Shown here piece by piece: positions 10,269 through 41,601 of a stretch of 64,000 nucleotides of DNA. The translations under genes were made by a program, and so were the position numbers. Source of the DNA: Sinorhizobium garamanticum (lineage in GTDB: Bacteria; Pseudomonadota; Alphaproteobacteria; Rhizobiales; Rhizobiaceae); the NCBI RefSeq assembly GCF_029892065.1, contig NZ_CP120373.1:2363001-2427000 (forward strand). The letters run 5' to 3'. The notes under the pieces are model-generated. The model saw only the letters and a program-made list of their open reading frames with translations. It did no database searches and was not told the origin of the DNA. Position 1 is the stretch's first letter, and each line of letters opens with the position of its first letter.

Positions 10269-10829
10269 ATGACAAACGCCTATCACAGGAAAAAGCAGCC
10301 GGAGCGGGTTCGCCAGCAATTGCTGGAGGTCGCCGCACGCCTGTCGCTGGAGCAGGGCATCGGTGCCGTGACGCTGGACGCGGTGTCACAGGCGGCGGGC
10401 GTCAGCAAGGGCGGGCTCCTGCATCATTTCCCGAACAAGCTCGCCCTGCTCGACGGCCTCTTCGATGAACTCATCGCGCGTTTCGACCGGGCGATCAAGG
10501 AGGCGATGGAAGGCGACGATATCGAGCGGGGGCGGTTTACGCGCGCCTATCTGACGGTCTGCTTTGCGCTCGAGGCGGAGGCAGACGGGAAGGGATGGCA
10601 GGTGCTGACGATCGCATTGCTCGCCGAGCCGCATCTCAAGGCGCGCTGGCGCGACTGGGTGGCACGACGCGCGGACGAGTTCGCAGCAACCGATTCCTCG
10701 CCGAACTGCCTGCTCGCCCGGTTTGCCGCCGACGGCGTCTGGCTGGCGGACCTGCTTGAGAGCCATGAGCTCGACGCAGCAACGCGGGCGCTTGTGCTCG
10801 AGGAGCTCAAGGCGCTTTCACGGCAATAG
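10269..10829 (+). CDS. TetR-family transcriptional regulator
   Basis: A 186-residue regulator with an N-terminal TetR helix-turn-helix (residues about 12-58: AARLSLEQGIGAVTLDAVSQ then AAGVSKGGLLHHFPNKLALLDGL, in pieces) and a C-terminal ligand domain of the TetR_C type seen next to SMR pumps. It is followed 50 bases later by an SMR exporter gene, so it probably represses its own gene and the pump in response to a toxic cation. A perfect inverted repeat sits in its promoter. Confidence 0.92.
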   Translation: MTNAYHRKKQPERVRQQLLEVAARLSLEQGIGAVTLDAVSQAAGVSKGGLLHHFPNKLALLDGLFDELIARFDRAIKEAMEGDDIERGRFTRAYLTVCFALEAEADGKGWQVLTIALLAEPHLKARWRDWVARRADEFAATDSSPNCLLARFAADGVWLADLLESHELDAATRALVLEELKALSRQ

Positions 10830-10879
10830 GCAAGAAAGTCGGAGCAGATCACTCTCAAACTACCCACCGGAGACGTCCC

Positions 10880-11221
10880 ATGAACCCCGCCATGCTCTAT
10901 ACGGTCCTGGTGATCGCCATCGTCTTCGAGGTGCTCGGCACCTCCGCGATGCAGGCGGCGCAGCATTTCTCGCGGCTGGCGCCCACCGTGGTCATGGTGC
11001 TGTGCTATGGCGTCGCGTTCTTTTTCCTGTCCTCTACGCTGCGCTATATTCCGGTCGGAATCGCCTACGCGCTGTGGAGCGGTCTCGGAATCGTGCTGAT
11101 CTCTGTCGCCGGCTATCTCGTCTTCGGTCAGAAGCTCGACCTGCCGGCCGTATTCGGGCTGGTGCTCATCATCGCCGGCGTGTTGGTTCTCAATCTCTTT
11201 TCCAAATCGACGTTCCACTGA
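10880..11221 (+). CDS. small multidrug resistance (SMR) efflux protein
   Basis: A 113-residue four-helix SMR transporter. The essential membrane Glu is E17 in VIAIVFEVLGTSAM (E14 in EmrE), and YALWSGLGIVLI is the conserved third-helix motif. SMR proteins export quaternary ammonium or guanidinium-type compounds in exchange for protons and work as dimers. Since only one SMR gene is present, a homodimer is likely. Regulated presumably by the TetR protein encoded just upstream. Confidence 0.92.
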   Translation: MNPAMLYTVLVIAIVFEVLGTSAMQAAQHFSRLAPTVVMVLCYGVAFFFLSSTLRYIPVGIAYALWSGLGIVLISVAGYLVFGQKLDLPAVFGLVLIIAGVLVLNLFSKSTFH

Positions 11222-11434
11222 CCGTCGGCGGTGCCTTTCGCGCGGCGTTTCGCGTTGTACGCTACCAAATGCCGCGCTGGTCAATGCAACATTTCGCTAC
11301 AGACTACGCTCGAAAAACCCCTGAAATTCATTGAAATGGCTGATCTGTTTCAATAGCATCACCTGCGTCCTTTCTTTGATGCGGCATGGATGCATCCCAT
11401 CCCATCTCCCTGATAATGCGAAGGAATTTTGGGA

Positions 11435-12490
11435 ATGCAGGCGGTTTTCGACGGCCACAACGACGTGCTTCTGCGCCTCTGGCAGCACGGGCGCAGCGGA
11501 GGCGATCCGGTAACCGAATTCGTCGAGGGAGCCGACAAGGGCCACATCGATGCGCCGCGCGCCAAACAGGGCGGACTCGCGGGCGGTATTTCGGCAATTT
11601 ACATTCCATCGGGCGATCTCGTGCTGAAGACGCCGGACGAAAACGGCCACTATGCCACGCCTATGTCCGCACCGCTTGACCGTCTGCCGTCGCTTGCCAC
11701 GGCGATGGAGCTTGCCGACATCGCCATCAGGCTCGATCGCGACGGGGCCTGGAGGCTTTGCCGCTCGACCGCGGAAATCCGGTCGGCGATCGCCGACGGT
11801 ATCTTCGCCTCGGTCCTGCATATGGAGGGCTGCGAGGCGATCGGGCCCGATCTAACCGCGCTCGAAACCTTCTATGCGGCGGGGCTTCGGTCGCTGGGAC
11901 CGGTCTGGAGCCGTCACAACGTCTTCGGGCATGGCGTGCCGTTCGCCTATCCCATGTCTCCGGACACGGGGCCAGGTCTGACCGAGGCGGGGTTCGAGCT
12001 GGTGCGCGCCTGCAACAGGCTCGGCATCCTGATCGACTTGGCGCACAGCACTGAACAGGGCTTCTGGGATGTGGCGAAGACAACCGACCAGCCGCTTGTC
12101 GCCAGCCATTCCAATGCCCATGCCCTGACGCCCGTCGCCCGCAATCTCACCGACCGGCAACTCGACGCCGTGCGCGAGAGCCGTGGGCTCGTCGGCCTCA
12201 ACTACGCGACGACGATGCTTCGCCCGGACGGGCAGGAGAATGCCGCAACGCCTCTGTCCGACATGGTGCGCCATGTCGACCACATGGTCGAGCGCATGGG
12301 AATCGATTGCGTCGCGCTCGGATCGGATTTCGACGGCGCGACCATACCGGAGGAGATAGCCGACGCGGCGGGTAACCAGAAGCTCGTTGCCGCACTGCAA
12401 GACGCTGGATATGGTGAGGCCGAACTGGCAAAGATATGCCGGGAGAACTGGCTGAGAGTTCTGGGACAGGCGTGGCACGAAGCTGCCTGA
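11435..12490 (+). CDS. membrane-type dipeptidase (peptidase M19)
   Basis: A 351-residue zinc dipeptidase of the renal-dipeptidase family. Metal ligands are recognisable: the N-terminal H-x-D in DGHNDVLLRL, Glu in HMEGCEAIG, His in ASHSNAHAL, and Asp in LGSDFDGAT. There is no signal peptide, so it acts in the cytoplasm. The ATG at 11435 has AAGGA at 9 bases. It precedes a complete dipeptide-type ABC importer, so it should hydrolyse imported dipeptides (possibly D-amino-acid-containing ones, as known for some M19 enzymes). Confidence 0.93.
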   Translation: MQAVFDGHNDVLLRLWQHGRSGGDPVTEFVEGADKGHIDAPRAKQGGLAGGISAIYIPSGDLVLKTPDENGHYATPMSAPLDRLPSLATAMELADIAIRLDRDGAWRLCRSTAEIRSAIADGIFASVLHMEGCEAIGPDLTALETFYAAGLRSLGPVWSRHNVFGHGVPFAYPMSPDTGPGLTEAGFELVRACNRLGILIDLAHSTEQGFWDVAKTTDQPLVASHSNAHALTPVARNLTDRQLDAVRESRGLVGLNYATTMLRPDGQENAATPLSDMVRHVDHMVERMGIDCVALGSDFDGATIPEEIADAAGNQKLVAALQDAGYGEAELAKICRENWLRVLGQAWHEAA

Positions 12491-33195: not shown

Positions 33196-33666
33196 ATGAC
33201 GATCGCAAGGAAACTTCAGGACTATATCGAAGGCGAGGGTGTGGCCTATGACACCGTCGCTCATCACCGCACGGCAACCACCAGTCAGTCGGCGCAGGCG
33301 GCGCATGTTCCGGGCAGCAGGCTGGCCAAGTCCGTGGTCGTGCATCACGAAATGGGATATTTTCTCGCCGTTGTTCCGAGCACGCATCGGATCGAACTCT
33401 CCACGTTGCAGGAGGTGATGAACAGGCGCCTTGGCCTCGCCTCGGAGGAGGAGGTCAGCACGCTATTCGCCGATTGCGACACCGGCGCGGTGCCGCCCAT
33501 CGGATCGGCCTATAATGTGCCGGTGGTCCTTGATGAGAGCCTCGGCAACGTCCCCGACGTCTACTTCGAAGGCGGCGACCACAAAACACTGGTGCATGTC
33601 AGCGGACCAAACTTCCGCAGCCTGATGAAGGATGCGCAGGTCGCCCGCTTCAGCCACCCGTCGTAA
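33196..33666 (+). CDS. YbaK/EbsC-type aminoacyl-tRNA deacylase family protein
   Basis: A 156-residue protein of the YbaK/ProX editing-domain family: GVAYDTVAHHRTATTSQSAQ at the N-terminus, AKSVVVHHEMGYFLAVVPS with the expected Lys, and GAVPPIGSAYNVPVVLDE typical of the family. These proteins hydrolyse mischarged tRNAs such as Cys-tRNAPro or Ala-tRNAPro. GAGGGTG precedes the ATG at 33196. Monocistronic in appearance. Substrate specificity cannot be decided. Confidence 0.87.
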   Translation: MTIARKLQDYIEGEGVAYDTVAHHRTATTSQSAQAAHVPGSRLAKSVVVHHEMGYFLAVVPSTHRIELSTLQEVMNRRLGLASEEEVSTLFADCDTGAVPPIGSAYNVPVVLDESLGNVPDVYFEGGDHKTLVHVSGPNFRSLMKDAQVARFSHPS

Positions 33667-33886
33667 CGGTCGCGATCCCGGTCGAGTCCTTGCAACCGGA
33701 CGCCGAGTTGGCGCTTTCGGGGGTGACCGCGCGTGTAACGGCGTACCCGGCAACGGCACGAAATTCCCCGACGGCTCGAAGATTGCGAAGATCCAGTGGT
33801 GAACGGTCCCAAACGCGATGAACAGGGAGCGCTATTGCCTGCCTCATCGGCAGCAGCCTGGCGCTGGGGGCAGCGCCGTGTAGCCG

Positions 33887-34822
33887 TCACAGCATCAGTT
33901 CCCAATTCTGCCCGACCAGATTGTGCCCAAAGCTATGGTGCTTCTCTTCGTGCACGAGGTGAAAGCCTGTCGTTTGGTAGATGTGCCTTGCGGCGGTCAG
34001 GATGTCATTGGTCCAGAGGGTGACCTTCGAATAGCCCGCCTGTCGCGCAAAGCGGATGCATTCCTCGACAAGCCGGCGGCCGATCCCGAGACCTCGTGCG
34101 CTCGGCTCAGTGTAGAGGAGGCGGAGCTTGCCGACGGTCGCTGATTCTTCAACCAGAAAGACAGAACCGACGATCTCGCCTTCGCGCTCGGCGACCCAGC
34201 AGCGTTCGCGGTTCGGCTTGAAGTTTTGAATGAAATCGGCCGTGATCCGGGCGACCAGAGCCTCAAACCTCTCATCCCATCCGTATTCCTCAGAATAGAG
34301 CACGCCATGGCGATGGACGATCCAACCCATGTCTCCAGGCTGATGTGTGCGGAGGATATAGGGGACGCGAGTAGGCTCCGGGGTCGGACCCGCGAGCAGG
34401 CGCTCGGCCTCGGCGAGTGCCGTGGCAAGTTTCCGCCGTTCGGGCAGTGAGAGGCGATCGAGCATGGCGCTCACTTCGTCGCGCGAACGCGCGTCGATAG
34501 TAGCGAAGCTTTCGCGGCCCGCCGGGGTCAGCGAGATCAGAACCTGCCGTCCGTCCTCCAGCGACGGGCTTTTCGAGACGAGACCGCGCTCTTCAAGGCC
34601 CCGCAATAGCCGGCTGAGATATCCGGAATCGAGTTCGAGCTCGGCCCCAAGCTCCTTGGCCGTGGATGTCTTGCGCTGCGCCAGTTCGTAGACGAGGCGG
34701 CCTTCGGCCAGCGACAGGGGGCCGCCAAGCAGGCCCTCGTGTAGCAGGCCGATGCGGCGTGTGTAGAAGCGACTGAAGCGGCGCACCGCAGCCACATAAT
34801 CTTCCTGATCAACCTGCGGCAT
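33887..34822 (-). CDS. MarR-GNAT fusion protein
   Basis: A 311-residue two-domain protein. Residues 1-140 are a MarR winged helix (TSTAKELGAELELDSGYLSR, then LVSKSPSLEDGRQVLISLTPAG). Residues about 155-311 are a GNAT acetyltransferase with motif A EPSARGLGIGRRLVEECIRFA and the terminal HSFGHNLVGQNWEL. This MarR-GNAT fusion is a known architecture in proteobacteria, thought to join regulation to acetylation; the substrate is unknown. Upstream lie three copies of a TTGACNNTGTCA motif, probably its own operator. Confidence 0.92.
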   Translation of the reverse strand: MPQVDQEDYVAAVRRFSRFYTRRIGLLHEGLLGGPLSLAEGRLVYELAQRKTSTAKELGAELELDSGYLSRLLRGLEERGLVSKSPSLEDGRQVLISLTPAGRESFATIDARSRDEVSAMLDRLSLPERRKLATALAEAERLLAGPTPEPTRVPYILRTHQPGDMGWIVHRHGVLYSEEYGWDERFEALVARITADFIQNFKPNRERCWVAEREGEIVGSVFLVEESATVGKLRLLYTEPSARGLGIGRRLVEECIRFARQAGYSKVTLWTNDILTAARHIYQTTGFHLVHEEKHHSFGHNLVGQNWELML

Positions 34823-34837
34823 CGAGCACTCATTTAG

Positions 34838-34889
34838 TTGACGCTGTCAGATATATCGTTGACTTTGTCATATAATCTGACAATGTCAA
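34838..34889. promoter_or_regulatory. three-copy inverted/direct repeat operator for the MarR-GNAT gene
   Basis: TTGACGCTGTCA (34838-34849), TTGACTTTGTCA (34859-34870) and the complement-oriented TGACAATGTCAA (34878-34889). Copies start 21 and 19 bases apart, about two helix turns. Copies two and three form a 33-bp dyad with one mismatch. It lies just upstream of the MarR-GNAT start and overlaps the end of the thioesterase gene. Confidence 0.6.
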
Positions 34890-35326
34890 CTATCTGACCT
34901 GGACGGCTTGTCAGCCAATCGCCGGGTAAACCGGTTCAGGTCGATGATGGCGCGGCGATGGGTTCCTTCTCCGATCAGACCGGTTTCGTCGCAGCAGGAG
35001 ACTTTGAAGAGAAGCGACCTCTCTTCTACCGCGATCAGTTCGATCTCTGCCGTCACCGACATGCCAACGGGTGTTGGCGTTACATGGCTGACATCGACAT
35101 GGGTGCCGACGGTGCGTTGTTCGTCGGTGAGATAGGGACGCAACGCTTCGATGCAGGTCTGCTCGATGAAGCCGATCATCATCGCCGTTGCGAACACCGG
35201 CGGCATGTCCCTAAAGCCCGGCCAGGCATCATCGACCTCGGGCACGGTGTGAAATGGGGTCACGGCCAGCCGTTCGCTATGACGCAGGCCAGCCGCGAGT
35301 ATCGGCAGTTCCCTGGTATCGCTCAT
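34886..35326 (-). CDS. thioesterase family protein (fluoroacetyl-CoA thioesterase-like hotdog fold)
   Basis: A 146-residue hotdog-fold protein resembling FlK: MPPVFATAMMIGFIEQTC supplies the expected Glu, GTHVDVSHVTPTPVGM the His, and GLIGEGTHRRAIIDLNRF the family C-terminus. Acyl-CoA substrate unknown. The start at 35326 overlaps the methyltransferase stop as ATGA. It is the last gene of a MarR-methyltransferase-thioesterase unit. Confidence 0.85.
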   Translation of the reverse strand: MSDTRELPILAAGLRHSERLAVTPFHTVPEVDDAWPGFRDMPPVFATAMMIGFIEQTCIEALRPYLTDEQRTVGTHVDVSHVTPTPVGMSVTAEIELIAVEERSLLFKVSCCDETGLIGEGTHRRAIIDLNRFTRRLADKPSRSDS

Positions 35327-36084
35327 ATGGTCCCCAATCTCATGTTGATGGGCCAGGACACGGGCCGCTTCTTCGTCGGGTCGCCCCAGAGTTCGGAAAT
35401 ATCCCGCACGAAAGCAGTGAGAATGTCTTCGCGCCCGGCGTCGTTGACACGACGCACGGCGGACCATGTCGAAAGGTAACCAAGAAAATCGCCGAGTTCC
35501 CAAGCCCTGTAGATCTCCATCTCTGGTGCCTCGCGCTCATCGAAAGGGAAACTGATATCGGCGTAGCCGGTGTCCACCAGCTTGCGCTCCGGCGGCCAAT
35601 AGGGGCCGATCTCGTTGCGGTAAAAATCAAGGAACCGCTCCTGAAGATCGTCGGGTTCCAGCCGCAGGACCCCGTAGCTGATGAGCGCGATGGCGGCGTT
35701 CTCGACGGCGATCCGGCGGGCCTCGGCATAAAAGGCCGGCAGATCAAACCAGTGGGCGGCCTGTGCTGCCGTGATGAGGCTGGCCGTGTTGTCCGCAAGC
35801 GGCAGTTTCTCGGCCGGTGCGCAAAGATATCGCACCTTGTCCTCAGCCTGTGTATTGGCGATCTGGTCTTCGCTTGGGTCGAGCCCGATCACGCTCTCGA
35901 AATAGGCCGCCAGCTGCCGGGTCAATTGCCCATTGCCGCAGCCGACATCGACGGCCATCTCGCGCGTAGGCGCAATTCCCGCAAGGAACGTAGACAGCCC
36001 GGCCGGGTATTCCGGCCTGAAGTGCGCATAGGCGCTACCTCCTGCATCAAACCAGTTCTTGCGTGGCATGGCGTCATTCCGCAT
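35323..36084 (-). CDS. class I SAM-dependent methyltransferase
   Basis: A 253-residue methyltransferase with N-terminal WFDAGGSAYAHFRPEYPAGL, motif I VDVGCGNGQLTRQL, acidic ribose-site region VIGLDPSEDQI and post-I SLITAAQAAHWFD. The family resembles ubiquinone/menaquinone-type and small-molecule methyltransferases. GAGGA precedes ATG 36084, which overlaps the end of the upstream MarR gene by 11 bases. Substrate unknown. Confidence 0.88.
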   Translation of the reverse strand: MRNDAMPRKNWFDAGGSAYAHFRPEYPAGLSTFLAGIAPTREMAVDVGCGNGQLTRQLAAYFESVIGLDPSEDQIANTQAEDKVRYLCAPAEKLPLADNTASLITAAQAAHWFDLPAFYAEARRIAVENAAIALISYGVLRLEPDDLQERFLDFYRNEIGPYWPPERKLVDTGYADISFPFDEREAPEMEIYRAWELGDFLGYLSTWSAVRRVNDAGREDILTAFVRDISELWGDPTKKRPVSWPINMRLGTI

Positions 36085-36565
36085 CGACGTGATCCTCGTT
36101 TGCGTGGTGTGCGGCGGCCCTCAGTCGGGCGGCAAATCCCTGGTGTTCCAGCGCGCGCGCCGTCTTTGCCAGCACCTCAAGAAGCGGATGGCCAATTTCC
36201 TTTTCCAGCGCGTCTATGGCTGCGAACGTGATCGCCCAGTGGGGTTCGAGCCTCTTCAGCAATTCCTGACCGCGAGGCGTCAGATGAACACCGTTCTTGC
36301 GCCCATCCTCCAAGCCATGGCGTGCCACCAGATCATCGGCCTCCATCAGCCTCACCGTCTGACTGATCGCGCCCTGCGTGAGGTTGCTGCGGGCTGTGAT
36401 TTCGGTGACGGTTTCTGCGCCGGCGGCGAGCGCGCGCATGACCGGGGTGTACCTGGCGCGATAAGAAAGGCTCATGGCGCGGTACTCTTCCTCCGCACCC
36501 TGATCGACCAATTCTCCGACATAGCGGAGCAATTCACCGAGACCTGGCATCTGTTTATTGTTCAT
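36074..36565 (-). CDS. MarR-family transcriptional regulator
   Basis: A 163-residue MarR protein: YTPVMRALAAGAETVTEITA, RSNLTQGAISQTVRLMEADDL (recognition helix), wing LEDGRKNGVHLTPRGQEL. It heads a leftward unit with a methyltransferase and a thioesterase. A 26-bp perfect palindrome sits seven bases upstream of its start codon, so autorepression is likely. No clear ribosome site lies between the palindrome and the start. Confidence 0.9.
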   Translation of the reverse strand: MNNKQMPGLGELLRYVGELVDQGAEEEYRAMSLSYRARYTPVMRALAAGAETVTEITARSNLTQGAISQTVRLMEADDLVARHGLEDGRKNGVHLTPRGQELLKRLEPHWAITFAAIDALEKEIGHPLLEVLAKTARALEHQGFAARLRAAAHHANEDHVDAE

Positions 36566-36571
36566 GGCAGC

Positions 36572-36597
36572 AAATTACATTAGCGCTAATGTAATTT
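36572..36597. promoter_or_regulatory. 26-bp perfect palindrome, putative MarR operator
   Basis: AAATTACATTAGC (36572-36584) is followed without gap by its exact complement (36585-36597). The site lies immediately upstream of the MarR gene start and is AT-rich against its GC-rich surroundings, as expected for an operator/promoter. Confidence 0.7.
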
Positions 36598-36889
36598 CAA
36601 GCGTGAGTTTTCCGGTACGTTTGGTGATCGATCAGATCGACCGATGGACCGCGCACAACGATCAATTGCAGCGTCGAGCCGTCACAAAAACATCTGCGGG
36701 GTCGCCGAAGCTAGTACAATCACGTGAAATCGGCGCCGCCGGGGTGGGGTGAGCTAGCATGGCCAAATACCGGATATGAGGTCCCGTTGGAGCGCCCTCC
36801 GTGGCGGAACAAGAGCCAGCGAAGGCTTTCACGCCGAAGCCGAAGACGAAGTGGGCCTCCGACGCGGGAGTTGGCTTGGCAGGCCCGTC
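36598..36889. other. intergenic stretch without recognisable gene
   Basis: About 290 bases between the MarR operator and the end of the hydrolase gene. I see no convincing coding frame or hairpin. A GTG-initiated frame from 36801 runs into the hydrolase gene in antisense and has a Lys/Pro-rich, unremarkable product; it is not called. Confidence 0.5.
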
Positions 36890-37441
36890 TCATGTCAAAG
36901 CGCGGACGCCAGCGGCAACCTCGGCCAAATCGTCGTTGAGCTGGTGATTGCGGCCGTGGAGCCGATGCACGATCGCGCCGGGTATCGCTTTCTCATAAAG
37001 GTCGACATGCGCAAACGGCGCCGTGTCGTCTTTGCTGCCATGATAGAGATAGATCGGCGTCTTTGAAGGCAGTCTCGAACCTAGATCGACCATTGGCTGG
37101 ATGTCCTCGCTCGGCCACCCACCAGCACCAACAAAGGGCGCTGCGATGAGAAATACGCCAGTAAGCTTCCGGCTCGGTGGTGCCTCCGCCAGGGCGCTGA
37201 TCAGAATCGTTCCGCCAAGTGAGTGGCCTATCAGTATCGCGCCATCATCGAGGCCGGCGATCTCTTCCGCGAGCGCGGCCTTCCATATGGAATAGCTGGG
37301 ATCGGCCTCGTTCGGCATGCGCGGGTAGCGGACGTCGTAGACAGGCCCAAGTTCTCGCCTCAAGCTATCGACGAGCTTGTTGTCCCATTCATCATGGGTC
37401 CCTGCGCCTCCGCCTTGAATGAACAAGACTTGCTTCTTCAT
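36890..37441 (-). CDS. alpha/beta hydrolase (RBBP9/YdeN type)
   Basis: A 183-residue small serine hydrolase. The nucleophile elbow is IGHSLGGT, the acid is in HGSKDDTAPF and the His in LHGRNHQLND. The N-terminal VLFIQGGGAGTHDEW is typical of this subfamily. Cytoplasmic, no signal peptide. Substrate unknown. It lies at the edge of the cassette next to the tRNA-Arg gene but is itself a common chromosomal gene. Confidence 0.88.
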   Translation of the reverse strand: MKKQVLFIQGGGAGTHDEWDNKLVDSLRRELGPVYDVRYPRMPNEADPSYSIWKAALAEEIAGLDDGAILIGHSLGGTILISALAEAPPSRKLTGVFLIAAPFVGAGGWPSEDIQPMVDLGSRLPSKTPIYLYHGSKDDTAPFAHVDLYEKAIPGAIVHRLHGRNHQLNDDLAEVAAGVRALT

Positions 37442-37524
37442 CGTTGAGGTCCTTGCACGGTAGCATATCGCCGCCTGTGGCGTCGCAAAACCGAACCACT
37501 AAAGACGTCTGTCGCCGCTGGGGC

Positions 37525-37659
37525 CTAGAATCGGCGGTTGCTGGCGTTCGCAGGTTTATATCGAAGTCTCACGCTGATGCCGAGCGTGAGATCTGTGATC
37601 CAATCCGGCGGTTCGCGAAATCCTTCCTTTAGCGGATCGACAGCGTCTTCTTCGGCCAT
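37525..37659 (-). CDS. possible 44-residue small protein downstream of the HEPN-like gene
   Basis: ATG at 37659, TAG at 37525-37527. It begins 2 bases after the stop of the HEPN-like gene and reads MAEEDAVDPLKEGFREPPDW then ITDLTLGISVRLRYK. The composition looks protein-like but there is no strong ribosome site, so it would depend on coupling. I do not recognise it; it could be a truncated remnant or a third component of the cassette. Confidence 0.35.
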   Translation of the reverse strand: MAEEDAVDPLKEGFREPPDWITDLTLGISVRLRYKPANASNRRF

Positions 37660-37661
37660 GG

Positions 37662-38414
37662 CTATACCAGCGCAACAACGACGTTGTTCACGAGATCAGT
37701 GACGACATCATCGGCCTGAGACTGCAGTATGGTGACCTGTGAGGGATGCGCCGCCATATTCCTCTTCTTCAGCTTCTCCCGCAGGATTTCGGTGGTGTTC
37801 TTCGAGAACAGGGAGGCGTTCTGGCAGACGTCGATCGTCTCCGCTTCCTTTAACTCTTCGAAGTGCTCTATGGACGAGACCACGAGACCGGTCTTCCTGG
37901 GGAAGCGTCGTCCGATAGCCGCGTTGAAGTCCGCGATGCGCTGGGCGTCGGCAAGGATCCACCTGAGCAGGTGGTCGAATGCTAGGTTCCAAGTCATCAC
38001 GACGCAGGCCCGAAAGGCTTCGGCGCGGTAGCAGCTCAGGGCTTCCCGGAGAAACGCGCGTTCGGTCATGTCGGGGATTTTGTCAGGAAGGTCGGACAGG
38101 AGCCTGCTGACCTGGATCACGCTCTGGTGGACGCCGTACTTCTTGTCGAGTTCCGAGCGGACGCTGCGGGCTAGACGATACCGGCTGCGCTCCCTGAGCA
38201 GTTCGGGCGGCTTAGACACGGCCATGCGCGGCAGATAAACGGACACGTCGGGGGAGTTCAGGTGGAGCTGCTTGAAGCAGTTCCTGACCGCCTCGTTGTC
38301 GAAGGACGCCATCGCCTTGTGCACGTGAAGGAACCACGCGCAGACCTTTATCTTTTCCTTCGGCGCGAGGCCGTCGAATCCATCGACCTGGTGGACGAAT
38401 TCAGAAATCTCCAT
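37662..38414 (-). CDS. unrecognised protein with winged-helix-like N-terminus and HEPN-like C-terminus
   Basis: A 250-residue protein not recognised as a named family. Residues about 18-95 look like a winged-helix module (KEKIKVCAWFLHVHKAMASF ... RYRLARSVRSELDKKYG). Residues about 118-250 are helical with YRAEAFRACVVMTWNLAFDH, typical of HEPN domains, and end with R218-N-M-A-A-H223, an R-x4-H motif like the HEPN RNase active site. The start overlaps the stop of the upstream gene by one base (TGATG), so the pair is co-translated. A toxin- or defence-type RNase is a hypothesis. Confidence 0.8.
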   Translation of the reverse strand: MEISEFVHQVDGFDGLAPKEKIKVCAWFLHVHKAMASFDNEAVRNCFKQLHLNSPDVSVYLPRMAVSKPPELLRERSRYRLARSVRSELDKKYGVHQSVIQVSRLLSDLPDKIPDMTERAFLREALSCYRAEAFRACVVMTWNLAFDHLLRWILADAQRIADFNAAIGRRFPRKTGLVVSSIEHFEELKEAETIDVCQNASLFSKNTTEILREKLKKRNMAAHPSQVTILQSQADDVVTDLVNNVVVALV

Positions 38415-39037
38415 CAGTCGCCGCCGCCCGCTCGCAACTTCTCGACTTCTGCAATTCCGAGGTGGTTGATCGCGTAGTGACCCTTCTCGCCAGGGGTCGT
38501 CATGTACTGTGCGAATTTAAGGTCACGAAGGGGTTGGGAGAAGTCCGGAATGCTTACGGACCACTTCAAGGTCCTGAATCCGGTGTAGATGTGCGAGGCC
38601 GTCACCAGCGGGGTATCGCGGTGTTCCTTAAACCAAGCCGCGATCATCAGGAAGCGCTTCGCGTTGCTCTTCGGGCTTGCGCCTTGGACATAGGATGCCA
38701 ACGAAACGCCGGTAGTCATGTCGATCTCAAGGACCTCCGGGGCTGGCTTTGCTGTCCGCTGGGTCTTCGGCCGAGACTGCCTGACCGGAGTTTCGATCTC
38801 GACCACCTCCGCTTCCTCGATGTCGTCCTCGTTGTCGATCTCGGCCTCGCGAGCGACTGCCTTTACGCCATTCGGACCAGCGATGCGCTGGGTGGTGGTT
38901 GCTGGCGGCGACGTCTTCAATGCGTTCTGAATGGCCTGCGTGATTTGCCCGATATCGCCGTCTGCGATCTCCGCCTCGACCATGATGAAGCGGATTTTGG
39001 AGGTTCCTCCGGTCTTGCCTGTCGTTCCCTTAGCCAT
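38414..39037 (-). CDS. unrecognised two-part protein, partner of the HEPN-like protein
   Basis: A 207-residue protein. N-terminal segment (KIRFIMVEAEIADGDIGQIT, residues about 14-40) followed by an acidic, then Pro/Lys/Thr-rich linker to about residue 105, and a C-terminal winged-helix-like module (KRFLMIAAWFKEHRD ... GHYAINHLGIAEVEKL) that looks related to the N-terminal module of the next protein. It starts about 160 bases from the tRNA-Arg gene. No catalytic motif seen. It could be a DNA- or partner-binding component. Confidence 0.8.
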   Translation of the reverse strand: MAKGTTGKTGGTSKIRFIMVEAEIADGDIGQITQAIQNALKTSPPATTTQRIAGPNGVKAVAREAEIDNEDDIEEAEVVEIETPVRQSRPKTQRTAKPAPEVLEIDMTTGVSLASYVQGASPKSNAKRFLMIAAWFKEHRDTPLVTASHIYTGFRTLKWSVSIPDFSQPLRDLKFAQYMTTPGEKGHYAINHLGIAEVEKLRAGGGD

Positions 39038-39200
39038 ACAACGCTCTCGCCTGAATGCAGTGGCACCGAATCACTTGGATCAGGGTATCGCGAGATGGCA
39101 TTTCAACGACAACGCGAGTCCTTGCACGGCGGGACTATTCCACAGGAATTCTTCATACGAGAAACTCGGACCCTGGTTGGTTGCCAAGCGTGAGAGGAAA

Positions 39201-39277
39201 TGGCGCACCCGACAGGATTCGAACCTGTGACCTTTGGAATCGGAATCCAACACTCTATCCAGCTGAGCTACGGGTGC
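39201..39277 (-). tRNA. tRNA-Arg (anticodon CCG)
   Basis: On the minus strand the gene starts GCACCCG and ends CGGGTGC-G-CCA, with CCA encoded (39201-39203). D-arm GCTCAGCTGGATAGAG, anticodon stem TTGGA/TCCAA around the loop TTCCGAT (anticodon CCG at 34-36) and the T-arm ACAGG-TTCGAAT-CCTGT all pair correctly. It reads CGG Arg codons. The cassette at 37.5-39.0 kb lies at its 3' side, a common integration side for mobile elements. Confidence 0.97.
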
Positions 39278-39436
39278 ATCCGTTGGCGGCAGGGCCGCCG
39301 AAGCAGGCTATGAGCGGTTCTTAGCCTAGCTTGCGCGCCGCTTCAATGGTGATTGATGGAGTTTGCAGCGGATTTTTGCGTACTGTGTTCGCGTCGAGCC
39401 TGCAGCGCTGCTTAGGGCAGGGACTTCCGAAAAGAG

Positions 39437-39462
39437 AAATGCCGCGTCCCCGGACGCGGCAT
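39437..39462 (-). terminator. terminator downstream of xylG
   Basis: ATGCCGCGTCC (39439-39449) pairs with GGACGCGGCAT (39452-39462) in a nearly loopless long stem (the tip will open to a 4-6 base loop). On the minus strand it is followed by TTCTCTTTT, fitting a Rho-independent terminator of the xyl operon. Confidence 0.75.
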
Positions 39463-39487
39463 TCGCGGTGTCTGCAGTGCTCCGTCC

Positions 39488-40273
<786 letters not shown>

Positions 40274-40287
40274 GTTCGAACTCCTGA

Positions 40288-41601
40288 TTATTTCGCGCGG
40301 GCGCGATAGACGGTATCGAGCCAGACGGCGGTCACCAGCACGACGCCGACGACGATCCGCTGCAGCGGGCTGTCGATGCCGAGCAGCACCATACCGGACT
40401 GCAGCGACTGCATGACGAGGGCGCCAAGCATGGCACCGGCGATCGTGCCCATGCCGCCGGCAAGCGAGGTGCCGCCGATGACGGCCGCGGCGATCGTGTA
40501 GAGTTCGTCGAGCTCGCCCTGGGCATTGGTGGCGGCGTTGAGGCGTGCCGTCGAGATCGCAGCGGCGACGGCACAGAGCATGCCCATCAGCGCGAAGATG
40601 CGGACGGTCACCCAGCGCGTCTTGATGCCGGCGAGCTCGGCTGCCTCCGGATTGCCGCCGATCGCGAAGACATAGCGGCCGAAGCGCAGGCGCGTGGCGA
40701 TGAAGGTCATGACGATGCCGATGACGATGGCGATCAGCACCGGAATGGCGATGCCGTGAGCGATGAAGAGGCCGCCTTCGGGCCAGGTGATGCCGTTGGC
40801 TTCGGCATATTTGCGGGCGATGTTGGTCGGCCAGGGGTAGCTGTTGACGACCGCCACGGCGCCGAGAACGAGGGCGCAGCCAATTCCCGACAGGAAATAC
40901 TCCGCCCAGACCGGGCGGCGTGGGAAGCCGAAGCGCTTGCGCTGCTTGCGGGCATTGATGATGCTGGCGACGATCGCGAGACAGGCAAGGAAGCCGACGA
41001 TCCAGCTTGCCGTTGCGCCGATCGAGCCTTCGGTACCGCCGCCCATCAGGCGGAAGGTGGCGTCCATCGGCGCGACCGTGCGGCCGCTCGTCACGAACCA
41101 GGTGGCGCCGCGCCAGACGAGCAGCCCGCCAAGCGTGACGATGAAGGACGGCACGTTGAGGAAAGCGATGATCATGCCGTGGAGCGCGCCAATCGCCGCT
41201 CCAAGGGAAAGGCCGGCAAGCAGTGTGATGATCCAGGTGGCGGGATGGTTGAAGCCGAGGACCTGCGGCAGCAGTTCGGCCTGCAGCACGCCCATGATCA
41301 TGCCGACGAAGCCGAGGATGGAGCCGACCGACAGGTCGATGTTGCGCGTGACGATGACAAGAACCATGCCGGTCGCCATCACGGCGACAGAAGCGGTCTG
41401 CACCGAAAGGTTCCAGAGGTTTCGCGGCGTGAGGAACAGGCCGTTGGACAGGAAGTCGAATCCGATCCAGATGATCAGCATTGCGCCGACCATGCCGAGC
41501 AGGCGCGTGTCGATTTCGGTGGCGCGGAAGAAGCGCTTCACCGGATTTTCAGCCGCGCTGCGCGCGCGATTAAAATGTGCGGTATTTGTCGTGTCGGCCA
41601 T
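40288..41601 (-). CDS. xylH: D-xylose-type ABC transporter permease
   Basis: A 437-residue permease of the RbsC/XylH family, with about ten to twelve hydrophobic segments. Family blocks: [50 protein letters not shown] (the conserved cytoplasmic loop) and [20 protein letters not shown]. The longer form with an extra central segment ([20 protein letters not shown]) is characteristic of XylH. ATG 41601 has GGGGGA upstream; the frame extends further without family similarity. Confidence 0.92.

Follow-up and report, generated by a model that had tools for sequence, protein, structure and literature searches.

What does a compact gene pair inserted beside a tRNA gene do for its bacterial host? We addressed this question for a cassette of two genes, A and B, in Sinorhizobium garamanticum, using a stretch of 64,000 nucleotides (assembly GCF_029892065.1, contig NZ_CP120373.1, positions 2,363,001-2,427,000), hereafter the window, whose numbering is used for all positions. 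An earlier note, made from the letters of this stretch, had described two overlapping genes next to a tRNA-Arg gene, one with a HEPN-like R-x4-H motif, and had suggested an anti-phage or toxin-type module. Our combined findings suggest, with a probability of roughly 0.6, that the cassette works as a HEPN effector system with two components. That the pair comprises an RNA-cutting effector, B, and a partner that controls it, A, is likely; that its main role is directed against phages is a reading towards which we lean.

Protein B is almost certainly a HEPN protein, with an invariant motif

An RxxxxH string arose in 48% of 2000 shuffles of B, and Rx4-6H in 86%. Given the composition of B, chance alone thus often yields such a string, and independent support was therefore required. 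First, R218, N219 and H223 were invariant in 61 of 61 and 44 of 44 aligned proteins, the window's B counted in both alignments; the first took in 61 of the 120 listed B homologues, and the second (A5) left out L044, in which B is split, L086, L090 and L096-L102. Second, a single-chain structure model predicts a HEPN bundle in the C-terminal half of B. We consider the motif strong because of this invariance together with the modeled bundle. B therefore combines the conserved R-x4-6-H of the HEPN superfamily with, as predicted, its four-helix bundle, and is almost certainly a HEPN protein, as the earlier note had surmised.

The precomputed Pfam label PF27235.1 was present on all 120 listed of 960 B homologues, including the window's B. 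Foldseek by itself gave no significant match (best E 0.31, and 0.26 in the viral library). A match of residues 115-245 to phrog_27609, a family of unknown function, at E 0.03 was treated as noise and not used, and PDB matches to Legumain, Duo1, SOX-9 and Swallow were attributed to chance.

That R218 and H223 are invariant also bears on whether B cuts RNA at all. B could instead be a non-catalytic regulator whose HEPN-like domain binds RNA or acts as a scaffold while the two winged helices of the pair serve as transcription factors, comparable to inactive HEPN proteins of the MtlR type. This is very improbable given the intact motif, and the erratic distribution and inserted position described below are ill-suited to a housekeeping regulator.

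Protein A is a winged-helix partner

The C-terminus of A is predicted to fold as a winged helix. Its N-terminal element has low model confidence, and R16, A22, G27, T33 and A39 within it are invariant in 54 aligned proteins (of 120 listed A homologues). In hhalign comparisons, this element matched between close and distant A proteins (E 6.2e-6, probability 85%) and, at low probability, in two of the other subfamily comparisons (E 9.7e-4, 22%; E 3.5e-4, 38%), with no match in three further ones (E 0.08-0.29); we take the possible kinship across subfamilies as a weak lead only. A had no Pfam match at E 1, and matches to NCBIfam YaeP (E 0.1) and phrog_19157 (E 0.15) were treated as noise and not used. 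To our knowledge, A is unlike any HEPN antidote.

The winged helix of A is possibly related to that of B: the A1 profile matches some A proteins (E 0.0016) and hhalign gives E 1.9e-4, although at a low probability (22%). Two such domains per pair would suit direct immunity, with the winged helices recognizing foreign DNA or RNA, the HEPN domain cutting phage transcripts and the host surviving. This seems quite improbable, however, since a winged helix alone gives no hint of its target and the best-studied HEPN effectors act on host RNA.

The two genes travel together in a sporadic, mobile pattern

The overlapping genes lie where the earlier note had placed them, both on the minus strand, which it had not given, and the stop of A and the start of B share one base (TGATG). 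A and B occur together in 39 of 40 genome loci, in all five viral contigs, on the sole plasmid found and in both additional genomes reached by searching with A, in agreement with the expected co-occurrence. Five of eight pairwise estimates of the ratio of nonsynonymous to synonymous substitution rates (dN/dS) were obtainable, the remaining three having no dS; they ranged from 0.04 to 0.09 (L007, L012, L090), values that are rough because synonymous sites are near saturation (dS 1.1-3.4). These ratios point to purifying selection.

The distribution is sporadic. Counting the own genome each time, full-length B was found in 2 of 60 relatives and A in 3 of 240 genomes belonging to the class; within the order, 6 of 297 genomes had B-type proteins (E 1e-12). 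Going by record titles, many of them of metagenome bins, 38 loci fall in Alpha-, Beta- and Gammaproteobacteria, Cyanobacteria, Myxococcota, Acidobacteria, Gemmatimonadales and others. In three IMG/VR contigs (L087, L088, L089) the pair adjoins a terminase gene at the same place and in divergent orientation, and portal, protease and capsid genes were confirmed in L088. Among 50,697 phage records the pair found no match, and a single one turned up among 72,556 plasmid records. The neighbors within 5 kb (239 of 242 open reading frames scanned) matched 103 and 155 PADLOC families for 113 and 126 open reading frames, versus 3 for 50 open reading frames of the window; these counts are of families, not proteins, and one region served as the control. 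A distribution that is sporadic and mobile, copies carried by viral contigs and neighbors of defense type are, as genomic context alone, consistent with an anti-phage or toxin-type module.

Part of this context would also fit a classical type II toxin-antitoxin system, with B as the HEPN toxin and A as an antitoxin that neutralizes it through the N-terminal element, represses the operon through its winged helix; the pair would serve to retain a mobile unit, phage defense being secondary at most. The order of partner before toxin with a one-base overlap, the small size of the inserted unit, a partner that joins a DNA-binding-type fold to a low-confidence linker, and the copy on a plasmid, which has a VapC-type pair about 1.9 kb away, all agree with it. 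However, B has a winged helix of its own, which a free toxin would not usually have, A is a large protein that has kept a conserved winged helix, and the pair is single-copy and chromosomal in its own genome. In addition, cargo acting on phages would fit the position next to TerL in viral contigs. We therefore regard a type II system as rather unlikely.

The cassette was inserted at the 3' end of a tRNA-Arg gene

The tRNA-Arg neighbor of the earlier note proved to be an intact tRNA-Arg(CCG) gene, about 164 bases upstream of A (Table 1). Among 19 aligned same-genus regions, the flanks in G020 and G007 align up to window positions 37565-37567 and resume at 39196-39198 with nothing in between, and profile searches found A-B at the tRNA site in none of the 19. 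The insertion thus lies at the tRNA 3' end, and its edges share just a few matching bases. A repeat of the tRNA 3' end, as expected of an att-type site, was not found elsewhere in the window (up to 3 mismatches), and none of five direct-repeat families at 33500-41000 brackets the insertion. At the level of whole genomes, phage-integrase matches were found in every one of those that carry 23 of the 24 loci considered (all but L017). An Rfam plastid match antisense to the tRNA scored far under the gathering score.

The same tRNA site holds other cargo elsewhere in the genus: a Lon-like protease, baeRF and two transporters in G005, and cargo including a Lon-like protease in G002, with no PADLOC match among the five proteins scanned from these two sites. 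In G013 it holds a divergent HEPN pair (181 and 242 amino acids) in the opposite orientation, whose A' gave no hhalign alignment with A (E 0.72; C-terminal part 0.05). Cargo at the 3' side of this tRNA-Arg(CCG) gene thus varies within the genus (the window; L070, L071, L082). Overall, the pair lies within 320 bases of a tRNA gene in 4 of 40 loci (the window, L009, L036, L041).

Table 1 Features of the cassette and its surroundings, in window positions
Feature	Position	Strand	Description
Gene A	38414..39037	-	207 amino acids: conserved N-terminal element, then a linker of low model confidence and a C-terminal winged helix
Gene B	37662..38414	-	250 amino acids: winged helix and HEPN domain
A conserved N-terminal element	38912..38998	-	Residues 14-42, IRFIMVEAEI..DIGQITQAIQNAL
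A winged helix (predicted)	38417..38686	-	A residues 118-207
B winged helix	38133..38375	-	B residues 14-94
B HEPN-type helical domain	37665..38078	-	B residues 113-250
R218-N-M-A-A-H223	37746..37763	-	Predicted HEPN catalytic motif, from sequence and conservation in alignments
tRNA-Arg(CCG)	39201..39277	-	Intact; 3' end borders the insertion
Inserted segment	37566..39197		About 1.63 kb; no counterpart at the same site in G020 and G007 (same genus)
Hairpin CTCACGC/GCGTGAG	37568..37590		7-bp perfect hairpin just inside the left edge; no terminator score in the scan
44-codon open reading frame	37525..37659	-	N-terminal stub, like the start of a longer downstream open reading frame in L012/L007; crosses the insertion edge

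A possible third gene of 44 residues does begin 2 bases past the stop of B, as the earlier note had it, but is not an intact gene: it straddles the left insertion edge at about 37566 and therefore did not arrive as one. We first considered it a possibly conserved third gene and dropped this idea, as the likeness of its first ~32 residues is confined to two loci. Outside the own genome, tblastn matches below E 0.1 were limited to these, L007 and L012, at 44-47% identity (E 2.5e-4 and 3.4e-4), and alignment at the DNA level yielded short matches only. In L012 (Rhizobium sp. BK418), a 261-amino-acid open reading frame overlapping the end of B (10750-11535, +) carries RNLIAH; its product had no clear Pfam match and is, from its sequence, a possible second HEPN protein. 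In L007 (R. sullae), the frame overlapping the end of B has 93 amino acids (10750-11031, +).

The gene following the cassette (36890-37441) has an alpha/beta hydrolase match in Pfam. Promoter and terminator scans were negative. Further away, a 311-amino-acid open reading frame (33887-34822, -) reads by eye as a fusion of a MarR-type regulator with a GNAT acetyltransferase-like domain.

Comparison with known systems

The pair as a whole still has no named counterpart in the libraries searched, and we recognized no description of it in the open-licence PMC literature, with supplements, where such systems may be listed, outside this scope. On the features compared, it falls outside Dandelion/PD-T7-3, HepT-MntA and type IX retrons. 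For Dandelion and PD-T7-3 we know of no winged-helix partner gene. Their HEPN domain is homologous, including the R-x4-H-P stretch, but occupies the N-terminus of a single 460-residue chain in Dandelion (PDB 9wx2, 9wxf; 432 positions in the PD-T7-3 model), whereas B has 250 residues, a C-terminal HEPN domain and a partner gene. Among PADLOC models, whose coverage of type IX effectors is unverified, PD-T7-3 alone matched A or B, the match to B spanning 37 of the 432 positions. Dandelion is used here as a PDB molecule name only, as no paper on it as a phage system was found in the open-licence PMC literature. Two genomes of the same genus as the window encode single proteins of 467 and 490 amino acids (L005:517-1920, -; L006:1501-2973, +) with a weakly PD-T7-3-like N-terminal part (E 1.2e-8 and 3.7e-8).

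HepT-MntA (HEPN-MNT) shares the HEPN fold, the R-x4-H motif and the two-gene operon, but its partner is a nucleotidyltransferase and A is a winged-helix protein; no minimal nucleotidyltransferase adjoins B, judged from the Pfam results for A and the gene that follows. The HepT-MntA motif is RX4HXY, and its tyrosine is missing in B, where P-S follows H223. Tha, a 301-amino-acid anti-phage protein encoded by a Staphylococcus prophage, also has a C-terminal HEPN domain with R-N-x3-H, but is described as having no discernible N-terminal domain (PMC11087260).

Type IX retrons offer one close working parallel, by analogy, to a two-protein winged-helix/HEPN operon. In retron-Kva2, according to a preprint (PMC13405049), a HEPN dimer is kept sequestered by a winged-helix protein, reverse transcriptase and multicopy single-stranded DNA (msDNA), and tRNA is degraded when a phage protein engages the msDNA. 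There too, one operon supplies both a HEPN RNase and a winged-helix protein. However, that operon also holds the reverse transcriptase and an msr-msd RNA, neither found at the A-B locus, and its HEPN protein lacks the canonical R-x4-H that B has. In the own genome, RVT_1 was found only at C1:3760836 and C3:9729, far from the cassette at C1:2400665, and the tRNA was the sole accepted Rfam match among known noncoding RNAs at 36500-39700.

A proposed mechanism and a possible wider class

With no reverse transcriptase nearby and no known noncoding RNA, we propose that both restraining B and sensing infection fall to A itself. A HEPN dimer forms a composite R/H active site. HEPN RNases are typically dimers (PMC13092281, PMC13405049); B would likewise dimerize, with R218 and H223 of both subunits building the RNA-cutting site. 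A would bind B via the N-terminal element, the winged helices or both, and keep it silent, until phage infection, through a nucleic acid or a protein engaging the winged helices, alters the complex. B would then cut cellular RNA, probably tRNA, and growth of the cell would stop ahead of phage release.

Searching the order with a divergent profile added further pairs and triplets: a pair in L098 (201 and 253 amino acids) and triplets in L099 (176, 172 and 266), L100 (177, about 171 and 241) and L101 (194, 198 and 244), each triplet with two small partner proteins followed by the HEPN protein. All 120 listed of 942 homologues in the L100-type search carry the precomputed label PF27235.1, as B does. 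L102 is a HEPN-only form, a 176-amino-acid HEPN-motif protein without a winged helix after a 245-amino-acid partner (1468-2739, -). That partner ends in a stretch resembling the start of A. A likeness of this stretch to the C-terminus of DUF5343 proteins was considered and dropped because PF17278 did not match it at E 0.01, its one match in the genome lying elsewhere. Tentatively, A and B may belong to a large unnamed class of winged-helix proteins gating a HEPN RNase, which would correspond, without a reverse transcriptase, to the effector complex of type IX retrons. Two-gene and three-gene forms would then be one Pfam family, the N-terminal element of the partner would hold the HEPN dimer, and two divergent members would have reached the same tRNA-Arg gene in one genus in opposite orientations.

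HEPN RNases are common in bacterial immunity, and how they are silenced and released is understood for few. The pair is compact and widespread, and some viral contigs also carry it. If the proposal is true, the pair would provide a minimal two-protein model of winged-helix control over a HEPN RNase, one comparable to the type IX retron complex, which is much larger, and would add a class to look for in phage-resistant genomes.
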